Below, one piece after another: positions 1,070 to 17,919 of a DNA stretch of 24,017 nucleotides. Below the pieces are notes generated by a model that was given only the letters and a program-made list of their open reading frames with translations, searched no databases and was not told where the DNA came from. The stretch is taken from the IMG/VR virus record IMGVR_UViG_3300042445_001050, positions 1 through 24,017 of that record, one strand, 5' to 3'. The stretch's first letter is position 1, and each line of letters starts with the position of its first letter. The DNA is from a virus. The translations under genes and the position numbers were made by a program.

Positions 1070-1831
1070 ATGAAAAATTTACAGGGTAAAGAAGCAGTTA
1101 ATAGAATGTTAGAACTAATGGGAAAAACACCTATTAACGAAAATAAAACAAGCTCAGTTGTTGAGTTAACAAAAATGGGACCAGATGGTAAAGTATATGG
1201 TATAGTTAGAGAAAATCATGAATATTACATTAAAGTGGCTAACACTAATGATAATTTAATGGTTGAAAATTTCAATTATATCGGAGGTTTGATGAATAAA
1301 AAAGATAAATCATACCCATCATACGCTAAAGCATTAAAACAATTAAATTTGAAATTTATGAGTCTTAATGAGTCTATTGGTAAGGCTGGTCAAGTTAATG
1401 TATTTCTTAATGATAATTTAATTAATGAACACCATGGTATGAAAGCTGAGGCTTCTTTAAGTGCTACTAAAGGTGTTGGTGATAATGAAGAATATATTGT
1501 TAATAAAAAAGGTAAAGATTTATCTTATGATACTAAAGAAGGTAAAGAGAAAGGTCAATTTGGTGATAATTTAGCAACAAAAGATACTGACGATGAGTTT
1601 GAAAAAGTTAAATTATCTGAAAATGAAACATTAATTGATTCTATGATTACTGGTGAAGAAATTGAAACTATCGAATCTAAAAGAAAAGGGTTTTCAATTG
1701 AAAAAGCTATTAATGAGATGGACGAAGTTATTGATTCAGTAACTACTAAAAGTAAAATTGATAGGATTTTAGAAGGTTTGTCAATTGAAGAAATGGCTGA
1801 ATTAACAGATTCATTAAAAAAAAAAATCTAA
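1070..1831 (+). CDS. Hypothetical protein, possible upstream half of a frameshifted product
   Basis: A 253-aa hydrophilic protein that I do not recognise. The N-terminal third (to about residue 100) has a mixed strand/helix pattern; the rest is charged and likely helical or disordered. It ends DSLKKKI, with the three Lys codons inside a run of 11 A (1816-1826), then TAA at 1829-1831. In the -1 frame the sequence stays open past this stop and joins the next ORF without a break. The stop may therefore be bypassed by slippage, or may be an artefact of a miscounted homopolymer. No promoter element is seen between it and the gene at 799, so the two are probably co-transcribed. Confidence 0.7.
   Translation: MKNLQGKEAVNRMLELMGKTPINENKTSSVVELTKMGPDGKVYGIVRENHEYYIKVANTNDNLMVENFNYIGGLMNKKDKSYPSYAKALKQLNLKFMSLNESIGKAGQVNVFLNDNLINEHHGMKAEASLSATKGVGDNEEYIVNKKGKDLSYDTKEGKEKGQFGDNLATKDTDDEFEKVKLSENETLIDSMITGEEIETIESKRKGFSIEKAINEMDEVIDSVTTKSKIDRILEGLSIEEMAELTDSLKKKI
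1816..1826 (+). other. A11 run, candidate -1 frameshift site
   Basis: Eleven consecutive A residues read as Lys-Lys-Lys at the end of the ORF at 1070. A -1 shift here gives ...KKK-NLNNNNKISTG..., entering a frame that stays open through to 3273. A runs are known transcriptional and ribosomal slippage sites, and also known sites of sequencing length error. A hairpin with arms AAAGCTGG / CCAGCTTT (1929-1961) lies about 100 nt downstream, too far to act as a classical stimulator. Confidence 0.5.
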
Positions 1832-1977
1832 ATAATAATAATAAAATATCTACAGGTTTATTTTCTGAAGAAGAAGATGGTTATAACATTGTAGATGAGA
1901 CTATTTCTGAAGATACAAAATATAAAATAAAGCTGGCTACCCCTAAAAAGGAACCAGCTTTTCCTGTTTCTGAACCT

Positions 1978-2082
1978 ATGGATGATGAACCTATGGATGA
2001 TGAACCTATGGATGATGAACCTATGAGTGATGAACCTATGGGTGGTGATACTATGGATAATAAACCTATGAGTGATGAACCA
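1978..2082 (+). repeat. Seven tandem 15-bp units
   Basis: Units of the type ATGGATGATGAACCT start at 1978, 1993, 2008, 2023, 2038, 2053 and 2068. The first three are identical; the others differ by a few bases. They encode M-D-D-E-P pentapeptides and sit in the disordered acidic N-terminal region of the 1978 ORF. Unit number may vary between relatives. Confidence 0.9.
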
Positions 2083-3273
2083 TCAGGTGATGCACCTTTT
2101 GATAAAACACCATTTAATGCTGGTGTCGAAGCTGATGAAGATGAAGACCCAAAGAAATTTATAGAGCAATTAACTGGTAAATTAGGTACAACATTAAGAA
2201 GTTACACTAAAAAAGAAGGTGGACCAGACTTTGATTTGGAAAAATATATCATTAATTCGGTTATTTCAGCAACACATACCGCTGAAATGGAAGAAGAAGA
2301 TAGAAAAGATATTATTAAGAAAATAAATGACGCTGGTGAAGATGCTGAACCAAAGGATGAAACTCCAAATGAGGATATACCAGAAGATAAACCATCAGAA
2401 GATTCTGAATCTATGGATGATAATAAAGATGAATTAAATGAGTATTTTGATGAATCTGAATTTAGTGATAATCAAGAATATGAAAATTTAAAATTTAAAA
2501 ATCCTAATGAATTAATTAATTTTTTAAGAAATAACATATTCCCATCACTAACTGATGAAGAAATAGATTCATATATATTAGAATTAATAACAGCGTTTGA
2601 CATTAAAAATAGATTATCTGAAAATGATAAATATTTTGAAGCTGATAGTAGATTTGCATATGAAGAAACTAAATCAGTATGGGAAGCAAGTGATTTATTA
2701 GGTGAGGGTGGAAATGAAGAAGGTAATCCAACTAGATATATGTTCTTCAGTAATTTAGAGCAAATGAGAAGACAAGCTGGTTTATTATTAGATTTAGATG
2801 AAGGTAAAATTGAAGCTATATTAAATAGTGGTCACGATTGGGCTGCTGACCATATTGCAACAGCAAAAGAAAGTTTTGACCAAGTATTTGATTTCTTAAT
2901 GAACGAAACTAAAAGTGGTGATATGTGGAAATCTGTTGATATTGAAGACCATAACGATGAAGAAGATTATGATTATTCTGAATGGTCTAAACCAATGGAA
3001 TTAAAGCAAGATGTTCAAATTTCTGAAGGATTGAAATATCACTTGGATAATAAATTAGCGTTAGGTGAATCAGTTTTTAGATATGGTTCTGATAAATTCT
3101 TTGAATTAATTAAAGAAGTAAAAAGTTTATATGGTAAAGACTTGATTAATCTTAATGAGAATGATACATTTATTGTTAATGATTTTGATGCTTCAAAAAA
3201 ATTATCGGTTGATAGGAGTGTAATTAGATATAGATTAAAATCTAAAAATTTTTTAACTTATATTTATATATGA
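1978..3273 (+). CDS. Acidic low-complexity protein, start uncertain (frame open from the A11 run)
   Basis: From the first ATG this is 431 aa; the frame is open upstream to the A11 run at 1816-1826, adding about 50 residues (for example LFSEEEDGYNIVDETISED) that read like protein. The ATG at 1978 is a poor start: it lies inside a 15-bp repeat (MDDEP units) and lacks the A/T-only leader seen before other genes. I therefore favour fusion with the 1070 product by frameshift or base-count error. The N-terminus is Pro/Asp/Glu-rich and probably disordered; from about residue 160 it looks folded and helical, with segments such as NPNELINFLRNN and EQMRRQAGLLLDLDEGK. No known domain is recognised. Its last codons overlap the promoter-like element of the next gene. 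Confidence 0.65.
   Translation: MDDEPMDDEPMDDEPMSDEPMGGDTMDNKPMSDEPSGDAPFDKTPFNAGVEADEDEDPKKFIEQLTGKLGTTLRSYTKKEGGPDFDLEKYIINSVISATHTAEMEEEDRKDIIKKINDAGEDAEPKDETPNEDIPEDKPSEDSESMDDNKDELNEYFDESEFSDNQEYENLKFKNPNELINFLRNNIFPSLTDEEIDSYILELITAFDIKNRLSENDKYFEADSRFAYEETKSVWEASDLLGEGGNEEGNPTRYMFFSNLEQMRRQAGLLLDLDEGKIEAILNSGHDWAADHIATAKESFDQVFDFLMNETKSGDMWKSVDIEDHNDEEDYDYSEWSKPMELKQDVQISEGLKYHLDNKLALGESVFRYGSDKFFELIKEVKSLYGKDLINLNENDTFIVNDFDASKKLSVDRSVIRYRLKSKNFLTYIYI
3259..3272 (+). promoter_or_regulatory. ATATTTATATATGA promoter element
   Basis: It matches the 14-mer at 777 and 12847 at 13 of 14 positions and lies 6 nt before the ATG at 3279. It overlaps the last codons and stop of the preceding ORF. 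No hairpin precedes it, so it may add transcription inside a longer unit. Confidence 0.5.
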
Positions 3274-3278
3274 TTAAT

Positions 3279-3872
3279 ATGGAAAATTTTAAATGTAAAG
3301 GAAAAAATTGTGGACATGAGTGGGTGACTGAAGAAAAAGATAGTCACCCATATCTATGTCATGATTGTGGATACGATAGTAAAACACATAAATATAATTT
3401 TAAAGCGTTAAATGATTGGAAAATGAGTCAGAAACCTTATACTGAAGAAAAAAATAATAATGTTATTAAAAGAACATTTTCTAATAGCGTTAATGAATCT
3501 GAATTAGTATGGCATAGAGATAAAAAGGATAGGGTAGTTAAACTTTTATCTGAAACAGATTGGATGATACAGTTTGATAACGAGTTACCAAGAAAGATGA
3601 GTATTGATGAAGCTATCACAATACCTAAGAACGTTTATCATAGAGTAATTAAAGGAAGTGGTGATTTAATGGTTGAAATAACTGAAACTGACGATGTTAA
3701 TGAAGAAGAGATAATTGATGAGATGAAATGTTGGGATGGTTATCATAAAGAAGGTACAAAAATATCAGATAAGACTGGTAAACGTGTAAACAATTGTGTT
3801 AAAACTAAAAAGAAGAAAAAATCTTTAAAAGAATCAATATGGAATATTAATCCAAAAGTTTTAAAAAATTAA
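3279..3872 (+). CDS. Zinc-ribbon / cupin-like phage protein with C-terminal CWDGY motif
   Basis: 197 aa from the ATG at 3279. An in-frame ATG at 3270 also exists but overlaps the previous stop and the promoter-like element, so 3279 is preferred. Residues 6-30 hold Cys6, Cys11, Cys27 and Cys30 (C-x4-C-x15-C-x2-C), a plausible zinc ribbon. Residues about 95-145 contain IPKNVYHRVIKGSGDLMVEI, which resembles a small cupin-like beta barrel. Near the end, CWDGYHKEGTKI...VNNC matches a Cys/Gly signature I associate with phage structural ORFs. The tail is Lys-rich. It may be a modular virion or assembly protein; the function is not established. Confidence 0.75.
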   Translation: MENFKCKGKNCGHEWVTEEKDSHPYLCHDCGYDSKTHKYNFKALNDWKMSQKPYTEEKNNNVIKRTFSNSVNESELVWHRDKKDRVVKLLSETDWMIQFDNELPRKMSIDEAITIPKNVYHRVIKGSGDLMVEITETDDVNEEEIIDEMKCWDGYHKEGTKISDKTGKRVNNCVKTKKKKKSLKESIWNINPKVLKN

Positions 3873-6264: not shown

Positions 6265-9192
6265 ATGTTAACAGCAAGTGAAATATTTGAGGAATATGTT
6301 AAATGTATAAATGACCCAGCTTACGCTATTGAAAGTTATTTAAAAACATTTGATAAAACTCAAGAAGGTTTTGTTCCATTTAAATTATTTGTTAGACAAA
6401 AGCAAATAATAAAGTCGTATGAGAAAGAAAGATTTAATTTAGTTACCAAACCTAGACAGGCTGGTATATCTACCGTTACGCAAGCTTATTTAAGTATTAA
6501 AATAGGTTTTGCTGACCCAAATAACCCTGAGACTATTATAGTTATTGCCAATAAATTAAATTTGGCTAAGAAATTCTTAAAAGGTATAAAGGATTATGTT
6601 ATACAATTACCTAGATGGGTTTGGGGTAATGAATATTATGGTAGTAAAGATAAAGAACAAGTAAATATATTTGTTAAAGATTCTCAAATTGAAATAGAAT
6701 TACCAAATGGTTCTAAAGTTATTGCTGTTGCAACGTCAGTGGATGCATTAAGGGGATATACACCAACTTATCTAGTATTTGATGAGGCAGCCTTCATTGA
6801 TAAAGGTTCTGATTTATACGCAGCTGCTGTGACTTCGCTTGGTACAGGGGGTAAATGCACCTTAATATCCTGTGTTACAAAGGATTCATTTGTATTTACT
6901 GATGAAGGTATTAAACAAGTTAATCAATTTATAAGTGATGAAAATATAAGTGGTGGTTATAATGTACCTCACTATAATATATTGGGTTTAGATAAACCTA
7001 GACAATCAAATATATTTTTTAATAATGGATTTCATGATACAATAAAAATTAAATCTACTTCAGCTGAATTAGAAGGTACTTTCACGCATAAAGTATGGGC
7101 TTATTCATTTAAACATAATAGATATGATTGGTATCAAATGTCTGATTTAAGTGTTGGTGATTATATCAATATACAATACGGTTTTAATTTATGGGGTTCT
7201 GATAATAGTTTAAATTGTGAATATAAAACAAAAAATAAACTAAATGAAATAACAAATGATTTAGCATATTTATTAGGTTTGCATATATCAGATAATAAAT
7301 TAGCTCAAAATACATTTTATGATATATCAAATGATTATTTCGATAAAATATTATTATCAATCGGATTTGATTTAAATAATAAAAAACAAGATAAAATAAT
7401 ACCAGATAAATCATTAGCTTTACCTAAAGATATTATGATATCATTGGTTCAAGGTTTAATGGATGGTAACGCGGTTGTAGATGTTAGATTAAACAAAATA
7501 ACATTTAATTGTGAATCTGAATTGTTATCAAAACAATTAAGAATGATATTATTAAACTTAGGTATATTAACAGAATTAAAAATAAAAGATAATTTTCAAT
7601 TAATAATATCTAATCATAATGTTAAATTATATTATGATTTAGTTGGTTTCAGATTTTCATCTAAACAAAGTAAAAAATATATAAGTGATAATGTATCTGA
7701 AATTATTGAGTTTATACCTGATGGTAAGAAAATAATAAGAGATATTATTGACGAATATTCATTAACCAATAGGTTAAGAAATACTGGTTTAAAAGTAAGT
7801 GATGTTAAATTGAATAAAATTAATAAATCTGATGATTTAAATAAACCTACATTCATTAAGTTTATTGATTATTTTACAAATATATTAAAAATAAATTTAT
7901 CTAATTACAATATAGATAAAGTATTATTAAATAATAGTAAATGGGAAAAAATAAAATCTATAGATTATTCTAAAAATGAAACATATGATTTTTCTTTACC
8001 AAATGATGATAATGATTTTTGGTGTCATTCAGTAGTTTATAACGGTATATTAGGTCATCAAACACCAAACGGTTATGATGATTTATATTATAAAACTTAT
8101 GAACAAGCAATAAGAAAAGAAAATACATACAATATTATAGAATTAAAATGGTATGAAGACCCACGATATAATAAAGATTTAAGATGGATTAAAGGTGATG
8201 ATGTCATTATTGAAACAGAATTCACATTAGAATCATTTAAAAAGAAATATTCTGAAGGCTATAAACCCACATCTAGTTGGTATGAGAACATGTGTAAAAA
8301 CATGAACCAAGATAAAAAGAAAATAGCACAAGAATTAGATGTGTCTTTCCTAGGTTCAGGGGGTAACGTAATAGATGATGAATATATTTTATTTCATGAA
8401 AAACATAATGTGACTGAACCTAAATTTGTTGATAAAACATATTATGATGGTAATAGTGGTTTGATATGGATTTGGTCTGAACCTATTGAAGGTCATGAAT
8501 ACATTTGCGCAGCGGATGTGTCTAGAGGTGATGGTTCTGATTATTCTGCTATGCAAATAATTGATTTTACAACAATGGAACAGGTTGTTGAATATCAAGG
8601 TAAAATACCACCTGATTTATTTGCTGAATTATTGGATATATACGGTAGAAAATATAACGCATTTTTAGTTGTCGATAATATTGGTGTTGGTCATACTACA
8701 ACAAGTAAATTAGAAGAGTTAAAATACCCAGATTTATATTATGAAGAAAAATCAAAAGGAAATAAAGCGGTTGGTTTTAATATAAATGGTGTCCGTTTAC
8801 AATTAATATCACATTTAGAAGGTATGATTAGAACAAACGAAATTAAAATAAGGTCTTTACGATTAATACATGAAATGAAAACTTTCATTTATAAGAATGG
8901 TAGACCTGACCATATTGAAGGGTATCATGATGATTGTATTATGGCTTTGGGAATGGGTTTATGGGTTTTGCAATCATCATTTAAAAGTTTAAAAAAATCA
9001 AATGAACAAACTAAAGCAATATTATCATCTTGGAAAGTTGGTGGGGCTGAAGATAGCATGTCATCAACAATAGATGTTTATGACCCAAATAAAAATAAAA
9101 AGGTAACTAAAATAAATCCTAGTCATTCAGCATACAGAAATGTTCAAGACCCTAATGGTGATTATTTATGGTTATTTTCTGGATTAAAATAA
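6265..9192 (+). CDS. terL: Terminase large subunit (T4 gp17-like) with intein
   Basis: DNA-packaging motor: an N-terminal ATPase drives DNA through the portal and a C-terminal RNase H-fold nuclease cuts concatemers. The precursor is 975 aa; removing the intein (203-599) leaves 578 aa, near the roughly 610 aa of T4 gp17. Visible motifs are Walker A-like KPRQAGIST (62-70), Walker B YLVFDEAAF (169-177, D173/E174), and the coupling motif TLIS-TPNG rebuilt by splicing. The nuclease domain shows DVSRGDGSD (D751 onward), VVDNIGVG and HDDCIMALG with its acidic residues. The start at 6265 follows a promoter-like element and an A/T-only leader. The portal gene follows after one small ORF. No small terminase gene is recognised here. 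Confidence 0.95.
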   Translation: MLTASEIFEEYVKCINDPAYAIESYLKTFDKTQEGFVPFKLFVRQKQIIKSYEKERFNLVTKPRQAGISTVTQAYLSIKIGFADPNNPETIIVIANKLNLAKKFLKGIKDYVIQLPRWVWGNEYYGSKDKEQVNIFVKDSQIEIELPNGSKVIAVATSVDALRGYTPTYLVFDEAAFIDKGSDLYAAAVTSLGTGGKCTLISCVTKDSFVFTDEGIKQVNQFISDENISGGYNVPHYNILGLDKPRQSNIFFNNGFHDTIKIKSTSAELEGTFTHKVWAYSFKHNRYDWYQMSDLSVGDYINIQYGFNLWGSDNSLNCEYKTKNKLNEITNDLAYLLGLHISDNKLAQNTFYDISNDYFDKILLSIGFDLNNKKQDKIIPDKSLALPKDIMISLVQGLMDGNAVVDVRLNKITFNCESELLSKQLRMILLNLGILTELKIKDNFQLIISNHNVKLYYDLVGFRFSSKQSKKYISDNVSEIIEFIPDGKKIIRDIIDEYSLTNRLRNTGLKVSDVKLNKINKSDDLNKPTFIKFIDYFTNILKINLSNYNIDKVLLNNSKWEKIKSIDYSKNETYDFSLPNDDNDFWCHSVVYNGILGHQTPNGYDDLYYKTYEQAIRKENTYNIIELKWYEDPRYNKDLRWIKGDDVIIETEFTLESFKKKYSEGYKPTSSWYENMCKNMNQDKKKIAQELDVSFLGSGGNVIDDEYILFHEKHNVTEPKFVDKTYYDGNSGLIWIWSEPIEGHEYICAADVSRGDGSDYSAMQIIDFTTMEQVVEYQGKIPPDLFAELLDIYGRKYNAFLVVDNIGVGHTTTSKLEELKYPDLYYEEKSKGNKAVGFNINGVRLQLISHLEGMIRTNEIKIRSLRLIHEMKTFIYKNGRPDHIEGYHDDCIMALGMGLWVLQSSFKSLKKSNEQTKAILSSWKVGGAEDSMSSTIDVYDPNKNKKVTKINPSHSAYRNVQDPNGDYLWLFSGLK
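6871..8061 (+). mobile_element. Intein in terminase with degenerate LAGLIDADG domain and C-terminal Gln
   Basis: Residues 203-599 of the terminase precursor (397 aa) interrupt the ATPase between LIS and TPNG. The intein begins with Cys203 (CVTKDSFVFTDEG, block A); block B is T272-F-T-H275. The C-terminal block ends VVYNGILGHQ, followed by extein Thr600. The last residue is Gln599 rather than the usual Asn; terminal Gln is known in some inteins and can still cyclise. A two-motif LAGLIDADG endonuclease is present: LLGLHISDN (Asp343 kept) and VQGLMDGNA, where Asn402 replaces the second catalytic acid. Splicing looks feasible, while DNA cutting is probably lost. Boundaries are set by comparison with the terminase family sequence. 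Confidence 0.9.
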
Positions 9193-9492: not shown

Positions 9493-11499
9493 ATGGCAAA
9501 TAATAAAACGATATTTCAAAGATTAAATTCAATATTTGATGCTAGTGGTGTTGATTTAACAAAAGTTAATAATCAAACTAAAAATAGTTCAAATACATAT
9601 TCACTTAATAACGATATATTACTTAAAACACCTTCTAAAGAAGAATACGAGTTAGCAAAATTACAAGCGCAACAAGGTAAATTCTTAAGTGGTTTATGGA
9701 AAAAATCTGAAAATGAATTATTGCAACATTCATTACATTATGAAACAACTAGAATAGGTTCTTATGCTGATTTCGAAAGTATGGAGTTTTATCCTGAAAT
9801 TGCGGCAGCTTTGGATATTTTTATGGAAGAAGCAACCACAGTCAATGCTAAAGGTAGAGTTTTGAATATTTATTCTGAAAGTAAAAGAATACAAGGTGTT
9901 CTTGAAGATTTATTTTTTAATAGATTAGATATACATTTATCATTACCAATGTGGACAAGAAATATTTGTAAATATGGTGATAATTTTTTACTATTAAATA
10001 TTGATGATAAAAATGGTATTGTAGGTACTAGACAGTTGCCTAATTTTGAAATAGAAAGAAAAGAAGGTGATGTTGTTTATAATCAATATAGTAATGAATA
10101 CAAAATAAATAATGAGGGTGAAAACGCTAAAGTTAAATTCTTTTGGAGAGGTAGAGATTTTGAGTTTAATTCATGGCAAATAGCTCACTTTAGATTATTA
10201 GGTGATGATAGAAGACTTCCGTATGGTACTAGTTTGTTAGAAAAAGCTAGAAGTATTTGGAAGAGATTACAATTAGCTGAAGATGCTATGTTGGTGTATA
10301 GAATAACAAGAGCACCTGAAAGACGTATTTATAAAATATTTGTTGGTAACTTAGATGATAAAGATGTTCCAGCATACGTTGATGAAATAGCAAATAGATT
10401 TAAAAGAAGGCCAGTTATAGACCCACAAACAGGTCAAATTGACTTAAGATATAATCAATTAGCTAATGACCAAGATTATTTTATACCAGTAAGGGATGAG
10501 AATGCAGCAACACCAATTGATACATTACAAGGAGCGTCAAATTTGGATGCGATTGGAGATATTCAGTACCTTCAGCGTAAATTATTTACAGCTTTAAGAG
10601 TACCAAAAACGTTTTTAGGTTTTGAAGAAGCTGTCGGTGATGGTAAGAATTTAGCATTACAAGATATTAGATTTTCAAGAACAATTAATAGAATACAACA
10701 AGCAATTATTTCTGAATTAAATAAAATTGCTATTATACATTTATATATGCTTGGTTTTGAGGATGAATTAAATAATTTTAACTTATCATTAAATAACCCT
10801 TCAACTCAAGCTGAAATGTTAAAAATTGAACAACTACAAGCTAAAATGTCAGTATATAAAGATGCTATATCTGAAGCTGGAAATGGTTTCATGGGTATGT
10901 CTATGACTAGAGCTAGACGTGAAATATTAGGTTGGTCAGATGAAGAAATTAGAAAAGATTTACTAGAACAAAGACTTGAAAAAGCAGCAGCAGCTGAGAT
11001 TGAACAAACTTCTTCAGTTATTAAAACTACTGGAATGTTTGATGAAGTTGATAGTATATATGGTGATATGTCAGCGGTAGGTGCTGGTTCTCCAGAGGGA
11101 CAAGAAGGTGATAGTGGAATGTCTGGTGGAGGTGGCTTCGGTGGTGGAGGTGGTGGATTACCACCGTTAGATACAGGTTCACCATCAGAAGAAGGTGGTT
11201 TAGAACCAGTTGAAACTCCAGAAGGTGGTGCTCCAGAAGGTGGTGCTCCAGATAGTGAAGCGCCAACTGAATTATCGGAGAGATTTAATAAACGTAAAAA
11301 TTTAATTAAAGAAAATGTAGTTAAACATAAAAATTTAATAACAGAAAAACAAAATTATGTTAATAAATTACTAGATGTTATTGATAGTAATGAAAAACCA
11401 TTAATCAATGAAAGAGTGGTGGTTTATGATAAGAATTTAAAAATTAATGAACATATTAATTCAATTATTAAAGATATTGATGATATGTTAAAGGATTAA
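9493..11499 (+). CDS. Portal vertex protein (T4 gp20-like)
   Basis: A dodecameric ring at the capsid vertex that initiates prohead assembly and is the DNA entry channel and motor dock. The sequence has the gp20 signature stretches: RIGSYADFESMEFYPEIAAA, then DRRLPYGTSLLEKARSIWKR, AEDAMLVYRITRAPERRIYK, and LGFEEAVGDGKNLALQDIRF. It is 668 aa against about 524 in T4. The excess is C-terminal: a Gly/Pro/Glu-rich linker around residues 543-590 (runs of four and six Gly, repeated EGGAP), then a Lys/Asn-rich helical tail. The leader is A/T-only; no clear ATATTTAT element is present, so it is probably transcribed with the terminase. Confidence 0.95.
   Translation: MANNKTIFQRLNSIFDASGVDLTKVNNQTKNSSNTYSLNNDILLKTPSKEEYELAKLQAQQGKFLSGLWKKSENELLQHSLHYETTRIGSYADFESMEFYPEIAAALDIFMEEATTVNAKGRVLNIYSESKRIQGVLEDLFFNRLDIHLSLPMWTRNICKYGDNFLLLNIDDKNGIVGTRQLPNFEIERKEGDVVYNQYSNEYKINNEGENAKVKFFWRGRDFEFNSWQIAHFRLLGDDRRLPYGTSLLEKARSIWKRLQLAEDAMLVYRITRAPERRIYKIFVGNLDDKDVPAYVDEIANRFKRRPVIDPQTGQIDLRYNQLANDQDYFIPVRDENAATPIDTLQGASNLDAIGDIQYLQRKLFTALRVPKTFLGFEEAVGDGKNLALQDIRFSRTINRIQQAIISELNKIAIIHLYMLGFEDELNNFNLSLNNPSTQAEMLKIEQLQAKMSVYKDAISEAGNGFMGMSMTRARREILGWSDEEIRKDLLEQRLEKAAAAEIEQTSSVIKTTGMFDEVDSIYGDMSAVGAGSPEGQEGDSGMSGGGGFGGGGGGLPPLDTGSPSEEGGLEPVETPEGGAPEGGAPDSEAPTELSERFNKRKNLIKENVVKHKNLITEKQNYVNKLLDVIDSNEKPLINERVVVYDKNLKINEHINSIIKDIDDMLKD
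11221..11250 (+). repeat. Two tandem 15-bp units in the portal tail
   Basis: GAAGGTGGTGCTCCA occurs twice in a row (11221-11235, 11236-11250), encoding EGGAP-EGGAP in the flexible C-terminal linker of the portal protein. Confidence 0.85.
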
Positions 11500-12870: not shown

Positions 12871-14697
12871 ATGTATACTGAATACCCTATTAATAATAAT
12901 AACACGCAAAATAAAAAGATGCTTTTAATTGAGCGTGATTCTGGATATATTTCAATTGATGATGATAGAAATAAAAAGTCCATTAATGAAATAACAAAAA
13001 TAAATAACGATATTGAAATAAAAGAAAATCAACCATTGATTGTTTATGTTGTATTACAAAAGTGGGGTGTTAAAAACAAAAATGGTAGGATTTACCCTAA
13101 ACATATATTAGAAAGGGAAAATGATAAATATCAAGATTTAATAAGAGAGAGAAGAGCTATAGGAGAATGTGTACCAGCTGGTACTGAAATTTTAACCAAA
13201 AATGGATGGGTTGATATTAAATACGTTAATGTAGGTGATGAGGTATTCACTTTAAATTTAGAAAATAATGAGATTCAAATTCAATCAGTTTTTAATACCA
13301 TTAATAAACCATATAATGATGATTTAGTTCATATCTATAATCACGGTACTTTAGATATGAAATTAACTAAAAACCATAAAATGGTATTATGGGATAGAAA
13401 TAATAATCCATATGAAATGACAGCTATCGATTTTCATGATGCTATGTTAAGGGGTGATTCAAGAGTTTCTCATTCTAAAATAAACTATGGTGGTGTTTGG
13501 AATGGTGTTAATGATGAATATTTTATATTACCAAATACAGATATAAAAATAAATATTCATGATTGGGCCGCGTTTTTAGGTATATTCATTTCTGAAGGTC
13601 ATACTAGTGGTAGTAATGGTGGTAAAGTAGTAAATAAAGTAACAATAACACAAACTAAAGAAAATCAAAAAAAATTACTAATAGAATTATTAGATAGACT
13701 ACCATTTAAATATTATATATCAGATGATAGACAATTTAATATTTATGATAAAGATTTACATGAACATTTATCAGTATTAGGTAATTCATATCAAAAACAT
13801 ATACCTGATTATGCTAAACAATGGTCAAAAGAAGTTTTAACAACATTATTAAATTGGTTATTAATAGGTGATGGTAAAAATCGTCATAACCCAAAAGGTG
13901 AATTGTTAAGAGAGTACTACACTACATCACCTAAATTATCTGAAGATGTTTATGAGTTATTTTTAAAGTTAGGTAGTGGAGCGTCAATTAATATTAGAAA
14001 ACAAAAAGATAGATATATCACAGACATTAAAACAGAAGTTAGTGAAGTTGATAATGGTGATGGTACAATTTCTTTGATTAAAAATAAAATAAAAAGAAAA
14101 AGATTAATTAAAGAAGAAAATTCAAAATTATTATATACCATATCTGAAAAAAAATCAGCTTCAGTTTATTTAGATAAAAGATATGTTAAAGTTGAATTAG
14201 AAAAATTTAATGATAATGTTTATTGTGTTTCGGTACCAAATAAAACTTGGTTAATGAGATACAATAATAAAACTGCTTGGACACATAATTGTGACCACCC
14301 AGAGACATCCATAATTTCAGCTGATAGAGTGTCTCACACAATACTTGAAACATGGTGGGAAGGAAAAACTTTAATGGGTAAAATGGAGATTTTAATGTCA
14401 CCAGGTTTCCTTAAATTCGGTATAGTTTCCACTAAAGGTGATGAAGTCGCAAATCTACTTAGAAATAAAATTATGATTGGTGTTTCATCAAGAGGTGTTG
14501 GTTCATTAAGAGAAGTTAACGGTGAACAAGTTGTACAAGAAGATTTTGAAATAATTTGTTGGGATGTTGTAACATCACCAAGTACGCCTGGTTCGTGGAT
14601 TTTTAATGAAAAAGAATCAGCTAAACCTTTTACCGAATCTGTTGAAAATAAGAAAAATTTATTAAACGATTCTTTAGATAATTTTTTATTGGATTAA
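12871..14697 (+). CDS. Prohead maturation protease (T4 gp21-like) with intein
   Basis: Serine protease that sits in the prohead core, cleaves scaffold and capsid proteins and then itself, making room for DNA. The precursor is 608 aa; without the intein (100-473) it is 234 aa, close to T4 gp21 (about 212). The extein carries QKWGVKNKNGRIYPKHIL, the rebuilt GE-CDHPE motif with the likely catalytic His476, and GVSSRGVG with the likely nucleophile at Ser539 or Ser540. VVTSPSTPGSWI follows. The intein splits the protein two residues before the catalytic His, so protease activity should depend on splicing. It is followed by the scaffold and MCP genes, its substrates. Confidence 0.93.
   Translation: MYTEYPINNNNTQNKKMLLIERDSGYISIDDDRNKKSINEITKINNDIEIKENQPLIVYVVLQKWGVKNKNGRIYPKHILERENDKYQDLIRERRAIGECVPAGTEILTKNGWVDIKYVNVGDEVFTLNLENNEIQIQSVFNTINKPYNDDLVHIYNHGTLDMKLTKNHKMVLWDRNNNPYEMTAIDFHDAMLRGDSRVSHSKINYGGVWNGVNDEYFILPNTDIKINIHDWAAFLGIFISEGHTSGSNGGKVVNKVTITQTKENQKKLLIELLDRLPFKYYISDDRQFNIYDKDLHEHLSVLGNSYQKHIPDYAKQWSKEVLTTLLNWLLIGDGKNRHNPKGELLREYYTTSPKLSEDVYELFLKLGSGASINIRKQKDRYITDIKTEVSEVDNGDGTISLIKNKIKRKRLIKEENSKLLYTISEKKSASVYLDKRYVKVELEKFNDNVYCVSVPNKTWLMRYNNKTAWTHNCDHPETSIISADRVSHTILETWWEGKTLMGKMEILMSPGFLKFGIVSTKGDEVANLLRNKIMIGVSSRGVGSLREVNGEQVVQEDFEIICWDVVTSPSTPGSWIFNEKESAKPFTESVENKKNLLNDSLDNFLLD
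13168..14289 (+). mobile_element. Intein in prohead protease with intact LAGLIDADG endonuclease
   Basis: Residues 100-473 of the precursor (374 aa). It begins CVPAGTEILTKNGWVDIKYV (Cys100, block A), with block B T166-K-N-H169, and ends TAWTHN (His472-Asn473) before extein Cys474: the canonical HN/C splice junction. The homing endonuclease has two LAGLIDADG motifs with their acids kept: FLGIFISEG (Glu242) and WLLIGDG (Asp334). It therefore looks competent for both splicing and homing, unlike the terminase intein. Sequence differences show the two inteins are not recent copies of each other. Confidence 0.93.
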
Positions 14698-16116: not shown

Positions 16117-17919
16117 ATGTCACAATTATTAAACTCAGGATTGGTTGGAAATATCGGTTTGAACCATATGAAAGCTATCCGTCAACAAGTACAATCTAAA
16201 TGGGAATCTTTAGGATTCTTAGAAGGATTAAAAGGACACGTTAAAGAAAACGTTGCTCAGTTATTCGAAAACCAAGCTGGTACATTATTAACTGAATCTA
16301 CAACTACTACTTCTTCTGGTTCTTTCGAAACAGTAGTATTCCCTATCGTTAGACGTGTATTCTCTAAATTATTAGCTAATGACGTTGTTTCTGTACAAGC
16401 AATGAATATGCCAATTGGTAAATTATTCTTCTTCGTACCTCAAACATCTTCAAGAGTTGATTCTGCTGGTAATGCTGGTGACCCATATGCTAACCCAATT
16501 TATTCTGCACACACTGGTATGGCTGCTCAAGGTCTTCCTTCATGTGTAGTTGGTGTTAACTGTGTTGTTACTCCATACTTAGCTAAAAACTTATATGATA
16601 TCTATTACAATGATGGTTTATTTGATAACTCTAAAGGAGAAATCACTATCAGCGTTGGAACTGGATTCTTTACAACTTTAGGAACTAACGGTGCTTATAC
16701 TGATTTAGCTTCTAACACTAAAATTTCTGCTTTAGCTACTGCTACTGATGGTTCTTTAAGAAGTGCTATCGTTAAAATGTCAGGATTCTCTTCTGTTAAT
16801 CCAGGTAAATTAACTGGTCCAGATGGAAACGAACAAGATACTGAAGCTTTCTTAGCGTCTTTAAAAATCGTTAACGGTGCTACTGCATTAATCGACCAAG
16901 ATAATGATACTGTAATCGCTGCTAACGCTGAAGTACCTTTCAGATTAGTAACTCAACGTTACGGAAAAGGAATTGTAGATAAAAACTCTGTATCTGATGC
17001 AAACGGTGTTATCTACTTAGAATTAGATTTAACTCACCCAATCAAACAAGGTGGTACTGCTACTTATGATGGTTATGTTGGTGTTGATGCTGCTGATGCT
17101 GCAATGTCTGCTTTAACTGTATCTAACTTCTCTTTCTCTTGGGCTTCTTATGCTTCTTTAGAATTAGAAACTGAATTAGGTGAAGTATCTTTCAAAATGG
17201 ACGAAGTTGTTGTTTCTGTTGAAGAAAGAAAATTAAGAGCTACTTGGTCTCCAGAATTAGCACAAGATGTTAGTGCATTCCACAATATCGATGCTGAAGC
17301 TGAATTAACAGCTATGTTATCTGAGCAAGTTGCTGCTGAAATTGACCGTGAAATCTTAAGAGACTTACGTAAAGGTGCTGCTTGGCAATTACGTTGGGAC
17401 TTCAACGGATGGAGAAAAATTACTTCTGTTGCTGTACCTTATACTCAAAAAGACTGGAATCAAACTTTGATTACTAAAATCAACCAAATTTCAGCTCAAA
17501 TCCACAAATCTACTTTAAGAGGTGGTGCTAACTTTATCGTGGTTTCTTCTGAAATCTCTGCTATCTTTGATGATTTAGAATACTTCCACGTATCTGATGC
17601 TAACCCAGAGCAAGACCAATACAACATGGGTATTGAAAGAATCGGTTCTTTAAGCGGACGTTACCAAGTGTACCGTGACCCTTATGCACCAGCTTACTCT
17701 ATCATCATTGGTCACAAAGGAAAATCATTGTTAGACACTGGTTATATCTACGCACCTTACGTGCCAATGCAATTAACCCCTACAATGTACAATCCGTTCA
17801 ACTTCGCACCTGTTAAGGGAATTATGACGAGATACGCTAAAAAGCTTGTGAATAATCGCTTCTATGGAGCTGTTAGAGTTGATGGTGTTCAAACATTTAA
17901 CATTTCTGAATTAAGATAA
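16117..17919 (+). CDS. Major capsid protein (T4 gp23-like)
   Basis: Forms the icosahedral shell. 600 aa, longer than T4 gp23 (521). The gp23-type core is clear: MPIGKLFFFVPQ (98-109), LGEVSFKMDEVVVSVEERKL (354-373), LAQDVSAFHNIDAEAELTAM (381-400), and a C-terminus with YIYAPYVPMQLTPTMYNPF and GIMTRYAKKLVNNRFYG. The N-terminal 60 residues are probably removed by the prohead protease: ...LLTE60-STTTT fits the T4 rule of cutting after Glu two residues past a Leu or Ile. The region about 165-330 is probably the inserted domain. Codon use differs from neighbours, with many TTC, AAC and ATC codons, consistent with very high expression. A strong terminator follows. Confidence 0.96.
   Translation: MSQLLNSGLVGNIGLNHMKAIRQQVQSKWESLGFLEGLKGHVKENVAQLFENQAGTLLTESTTTTSSGSFETVVFPIVRRVFSKLLANDVVSVQAMNMPIGKLFFFVPQTSSRVDSAGNAGDPYANPIYSAHTGMAAQGLPSCVVGVNCVVTPYLAKNLYDIYYNDGLFDNSKGEITISVGTGFFTTLGTNGAYTDLASNTKISALATATDGSLRSAIVKMSGFSSVNPGKLTGPDGNEQDTEAFLASLKIVNGATALIDQDNDTVIAANAEVPFRLVTQRYGKGIVDKNSVSDANGVIYLELDLTHPIKQGGTATYDGYVGVDAADAAMSALTVSNFSFSWASYASLELETELGEVSFKMDEVVVSVEERKLRATWSPELAQDVSAFHNIDAEAELTAMLSEQVAAEIDREILRDLRKGAAWQLRWDFNGWRKITSVAVPYTQKDWNQTLITKINQISAQIHKSTLRGGANFIVVSSEISAIFDDLEYFHVSDANPEQDQYNMGIERIGSLSGRYQVYRDPYAPAYSIIIGHKGKSLLDTGYIYAPYVPMQLTPTMYNPFNFAPVKGIMTRYAKKLVNNRFYGAVRVDGVQTFNISELR

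Follow-up and report, generated by a model that had tools for sequence, protein, structure and literature searches.

A conserved -1 split at a run of A's, with a downstream hairpin, in a gene of T4-like phages

Several bacterial genes are known to yield products of two lengths by slippage on a run of A's, among them tssM, dnaX, type III genes of Shigella and insertion sequences (PMC4256274, PMC3711429, PMC5009743). In tssM1 of Citrobacter rodentium, a run of 11 A's stands before a stop codon, transcriptional slippage takes place at about 20–25%, and both protein lengths are required; the Yersinia tssM orthologue makes its short form by slippage (PMC4256274). Among phages, T4 is named in a review as an exception to the frameshifting of the tail chaperone genes G/GT (PMC5009743). 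Our searches of open-access papers turned up no report of A-run slippage being conserved in a phage lineage. Here we describe a split gene with such a run in a large, uncultured group of T4-like phages, and conclude that each phage of the group almost certainly produces one protein in two lengths, short and long. If true, frameshifting at an A-run would be deeply conserved in this lineage of T4-like phages, of which the collection searched yielded no isolate bearing the gene.

The split gene and its surroundings

The window, by which we mean the whole stretch of DNA that was analysed (24,017 nucleotides), is a 24-kb virus record of a T4-like phage. The split gene sits upstream of the terminase gene, in a region of packaging, portal and capsid genes. 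The features are as follows (window positions).

1070–1831, plus strand: ORF1, the short product of 253 aa, ending LKKKI-stop; a conserved N-terminal domain (about residues 1–115) and a variable acidic part, with invariant residues over 32 relatives
1816–1826, plus strand: putative slippery run, A11; A9–A12 in all -1 relatives
1829–1831, plus strand: TAA stop of the unshifted frame
1801–3273, plus strand: ORF2, the open -1 frame, which has 482 codons counted from 1825 and no start codon near the conserved beginning
1918–1935, plus strand: KYKIKL block (KYKLKL in relatives), the earliest conserved block in the -1 frame, lying ahead of the first ATG
1929–1961, plus strand: RNA hairpin AAAGCUGG ... 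CCAGCUUU, conserved, within coding sequence
1971–2081, plus strand: 15-bp tandem repeat, 7.4 copies, encoding an acidic PMDDE-like repeat and holding the ATG at 1978
2113–2337, plus strand: conserved core domain of ORF2, DPKKFIEQLTGKLG...INSVISATHTAEM...DIIKKI, predicted to be helical
3270–3872: next gene after ORF2, zinc-ribbon-like
6265–9192: T4-type terminase gene
9493–11499: portal gene
12871–14697: prohead protease gene
16117–17919: major capsid protein gene

A recheck of the sequence agreed with the preliminary description on the A11 run, on ORF1 ending in KKKI-stop and on a -1 frame open to 3273. The run is the longest of A or T in the window. The ATG at 1978, which had been placed inside a 15-bp repeat, does fall within the tandem repeat located at 1971–2081; it is the first ATG of ORF2, and the first TTG lies about 409 nt from the run. 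The long product, put earlier at about 730 aa by slippage, was computed as 252 + 482 = 734 aa, with a junction reading ...SLKKKNLNNNNK; one extra A or a -1 ribosomal shift would give the identical protein. Where the window has A11-TCTAA, its nearest relatives have A10-GTCTAA or A10-GTCTAG, so that the 11th A is most simply, and probably, a G-to-A substitution that left the frame relation unchanged.

Searches of Pfam and PHROGs gave no informative match for ORF1 or ORF2, and the PHROG matches in relatives were nearly all of unknown function. No relative of ORF1 was found among 50,697 public phage records, and none of the named phages among them carries it; matches to Flavobacterium phage immuto and to an uncultured phage of 642 kb came from C-terminal modules only. 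Structures predicted with AlphaFold had low confidence (mean pLDDT 60), and fold searches with them returned no informative match, the best being uncharacterised phage proteins. Compared with the window, some relatives (L007, L016, L010, L012–L015) have the C-terminal modules of ORF2 in changed order or in duplicate, residues 305–360 and 387–454 of the window's ORF2 being matched out of order or twice.

Just behind the run (1825–1860 in the window, and in relatives), the -1 frame often reads [LI]xE (SLNE, TLSE, SLTE, INE), a pattern similar to the T4 prohead protease consensus; cleavage of the long form close to the junction is conceivable. LAGLIDADG-bearing, intein-like insertions were seen inside the terminase (6265–9192) and prohead protease (12871–14697) genes. 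No second A-run frameshift gene was found in the same loci, and two candidates look like ordinary gene boundaries.

Frame relation and probable mechanism of the transition

Relatives were collected by IMG/VR scans with ORF1, with an ORF1 alignment and with distant members, and by one scan of GTDB genomes. This gave 96 distinct loci, window included, in which both conserved domains could be placed. The second domain lies in the -1 frame in 85 of the 96, in frame in 10 and in the +1 frame in one (L063). Between the two domains, the longest run of A's in each of these 85 -1 loci has 9–12 residues (A9 in 7, A10 in 74, A11 in 3 and A12 in 1). Both codon phase and length of the run vary (A10 in phases 0, 1 and 2; A9; A11; A12), and the -1 relation is constant. 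The +1 frame is shut within 1–9 codons in all loci checked except L063. ORF1 identities span 34–89% (median 51%; 56 representatives). In a set thinned to 63 lineages of less than 90% similarity, three AAA codons stand at the site in 60, versus 41 of 54 with both codons AAA at a conserved KK pair in the N-terminal domain. Judged from these sequences, the -1 split is ancient and conserved beyond chance. The earlier proposal that A10 or A12 in relatives would disprove programmed slippage was mistaken, as the frame relation is kept while run length and phase vary. The sole locus with ORF2 in the +1 frame, L063, has A9 (positions 2975–2983 of that locus) and its close relative L065 has A10; L063 may be a real variant or carry a one-base contig error.

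An uninterrupted gene, which the preliminary description had suggested looking for in relatives, does exist in nature. L083 and its kin encode a single continuous protein with no run of at least nine A's, and make up one side of the tree, with full support; none of the seven loci of this in-frame sister clade has such a run. Inside the frameshifting part of the tree, L119, L120 and L121 read straight through an A11 whose flanking sequence is preserved, and L082 reads straight through A10; three of the in-frame loci (L119, L120 and L082) keep the run. Since continuous versions exist, the two halves make up one polypeptide, and since L119–L121 and L082 retain the run, a run can outlive the need for it. 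By analogy with the tssM orthologues (PMC4256274), the run retained in in-frame relatives could make a short form by slippage. The split and in-frame versions allow a direct comparison that bears on why a phage would retain a protein in two lengths. The only match in GTDB genomes, L083 (QCKH01000009.1), carries the in-frame version on a contig of a Prochlorococcus single-cell genome; this hints at the host range of the sister clade.

We are highly confident that a product of frame transition is made, by whichever mechanism. The likeliest mechanism, and in our judgement a fairly probable one, would be RNA polymerase slippage on the A-run. Transcriptional slippage is favoured because at least nine A's are always present, the codon phase varies, the usual ribosomal stimulators are absent, A_AAA_AAA_AAG does not occur and the run is kept in some in-frame relatives. 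The A9–A12 found at the frame transition in 85/85 -1 loci is of the length usual for polymerase slippage (at least nine A's or T's). Most transcripts would then carry the genomic run, and their translation would end at the adjacent stop to give the short form of 253 aa. Through slippage, a fraction of transcripts would gain one extra A and be read into the -1 frame, giving 734 aa with the acidic linker, the conserved helical core and the C-terminal modules. Selection would retain the -1 arrangement so that both forms, which we infer to be needed, arise at a set ratio. A stem-loop upstream of the run was considered as a stimulator of slippage and rejected, since no folding signal was found there.

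Programmed -1 ribosomal frameshifting, in which the ribosome slips on A_AAA_AAA within the run of a faithful mRNA, is the main rival, though clearly less probable. In its favour, A_AAA_AAA, a heptamer of the form X_XXY_YYZ, stands in register at every site, in every codon phase seen, and the shift is -1 in 85 of the 86 shifted loci (+1 in L063); Antonov et al. read a constant direction as pointing to ribosomal, not transcriptional, shifting (PMC3711429). In addition, weak extra structure was found between +11 and +62 in the loci of group B, to which the window belongs. However, seven A's would suffice for a ribosomal slip, yet none of the 85 loci has fewer than nine, and the form A_AAA_AAA_AAG is absent even though about 21% of lysine codons are AAG. 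No structure signal lies close behind the run in group A (z about -0.3 at +2 to +44), and no stimulatory structure was found about 5–9 nt past the run, where a ribosomal site would have one; the hairpin lies at 22–55 or about 85–170 nt. Nor is there a clear internal Shine-Dalgarno signal, such sequences being weakly enriched (10 of 63, or 16%, versus 8.6% in controls).

The hairpin behind the run

Folding was compared with that of randomised synonymous codons. A sharp structure signal was found at the KYKLKL linker, with a mean z of -4.1 versus about -0.4 at most other places, and z fell below -2 in 90% of 61 loci versus 15% at a control place (best of three offsets). In the window, the hairpin at 1929–1961 scored -5.2 against synonymous codons and -2.95 against dinucleotide shuffles. 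It is present (z < -2.5) in 77 of the 85 testable frameshifting loci and in none of the 10 in-frame loci, and in frameshifting loci it is under selection beyond the protein code. Of the eight frameshifting loci that do not pass this threshold, five (L012–L014, L027 and L153) form a clade with the in-frame L082, which implies that the hairpin is not strictly required. The comparison of frameshifting and in-frame loci comprises two to three phylogenetically independent contrasts, so the link between hairpin and frameshift is suggestive and not statistically secure. The hairpin had no match in Rfam 15 at the gathering threshold. An alignment for covariation misplaced the arms, whose loop lengths differ, and synonymous-codon randomisation was relied on instead; covariation seen by eye between L108 and L112 is anecdotal.

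In group A the 5' base of the hairpin lies 22–55 nt behind the run, mostly 32–37 nt, and never less than 15 nt from the unshifted stop. In group B, whose loci have an additional STGLF block that shows weaker structure itself, it lies about 85–170 nt behind the run (102 nt in the window), with an outlier, L046, at 267. Such spacing is too wide for a classical ribosomal stimulator, and since the polymerase transcribes the hairpin only once it has passed the run, the hairpin cannot make it slip there. The 15-nt floor suggests that it must stay folded while a ribosome terminates.

Rather than causing the slip, the hairpin may protect or insulate the mRNA past the stop, where ribosomes would be few. 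We tentatively propose that run and distant hairpin form an undescribed two-part expression element, in which the run would set the short-to-long ratio, and the hairpin, at least 15 nt past the unshifted stop and left folded by the terminating ribosome, would determine what becomes of the mRNA further downstream, which would be sparsely translated, by blocking nucleases or Rho, for instance; the hairpin would be lost once the gene is continuous. As an addition to either slip mechanism, the hairpin could instead be part of the shift signal, raising -1 slippage remotely, whether by way of a bound protein, by long-range contact or by the queuing of ribosomes. The counts of 77/85 versus 0/10 and the spacing in group A agree with such a role, whereas the wider spacing in group B (window included), the clade that shifts without a hairpin and the small number of independent contrasts speak against it, and we regard it as rather unlikely. 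Taken as a whole, and going by sequence evidence, we think it reasonably likely that the locus has a programmed frame transition by RNA polymerase slippage, with two products at a set ratio and the hairpin guarding the mRNA. Being confined to the split versions, the hairpin is a testable lead on how mRNA is handled behind a frequently used stop.

A second strong hairpin, GGGTGACT...AGTCACCC, was observed at 3317–3361 of the window, near the start of the zinc-ribbon-like gene (3270–3872), and also at 7358–7402 of L004 (z of -5.3 in the window and -7.0 in L004, synonymous-codon control).

Coding continuity and comparison with described systems

The codons ahead of the ATG at 1978 had been described as reading like real protein, and the region does evolve as -1-frame coding sequence: between the run and the first ATG, 11 close pairs have 52, 40 and 119 substitutions at -1-frame codon positions 1, 2 and 3, a third-position excess of 119 out of 211. 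In many loci the first ATG lies 340–460 nt behind the run, past the conserved KYKLKL block, which initiation at an ATG therefore cannot produce in those loci. The downstream frame is under coding selection and is joined to the upstream frame, as expected of recoding. That ORF2 is a separate gene with its own internal start (1978 in the window) is very improbable. An in-frame ATG is indeed present there, and predicted genomic frameshifts often prove to be adjacent, translationally coupled genes (PMC3711429). Nevertheless, we rejected internal initiation given the conservation and coding selection ahead of the ATG, the unfixed position of the ATG itself and the single protein encoded by in-frame relatives. 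Gene callers split the gene, and likely annotate its second half from a wrong ATG across the group.

Long A-runs are error-prone in sequencing, but an assembly error or a decaying gene has virtually no chance of accounting for an identical A9–A12 -1 split at 85 distinct loci from independent metagenomes, for a -1 frame under coding selection and for natural in-frame versions, and was rejected. Of the two readings offered in the preliminary description, slippage to a short and a long product is strongly supported, and a wrong A-run length is excluded by the 85 loci from many independent metagenomes.

The phage protein is unrelated to that of dnaX, and its long form is the shifted one, whereas in dnaX of Thermus thermophilus the long form is the unshifted one. 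What dnaX of T. thermophilus and Chlorobi shares with the phage gene is an A-run within the coding region (A9/A10), where slippage leads to two products (PMC3711429). The likeness to tssM1 of C. rodentium, a type VI secretion gene, extends to A11 before a stop, a short and a long product and an orthologue with the opposite default product (PMC4256274); however, tssM1 is a bacterial gene whose site occurs in few orthologues, whereas the phage site occurs in 85 distinct loci and has a downstream hairpin. With the G/GT tail chaperone of lambda (PMC5009743) the locus shares a phage structural-region gene, a minor -1 C-terminal extension and a conserved place. In contrast to G/GT, which lies just upstream of the tape measure gene, it adjoins terminase, portal, protease and capsid genes, its run is A9–A12 and its extension exceeds the first part. 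IS1447 and the Roseiflexus IS630 element likewise combine transcriptional slippage at a run with an RNA stem-loop (PMC6211511). There the stem-loop adjoins or precedes the run, where it can affect the polymerase, whereas the phage hairpin lies far downstream. This distant hairpin sets the phage case apart from the other A-run slippage genes.
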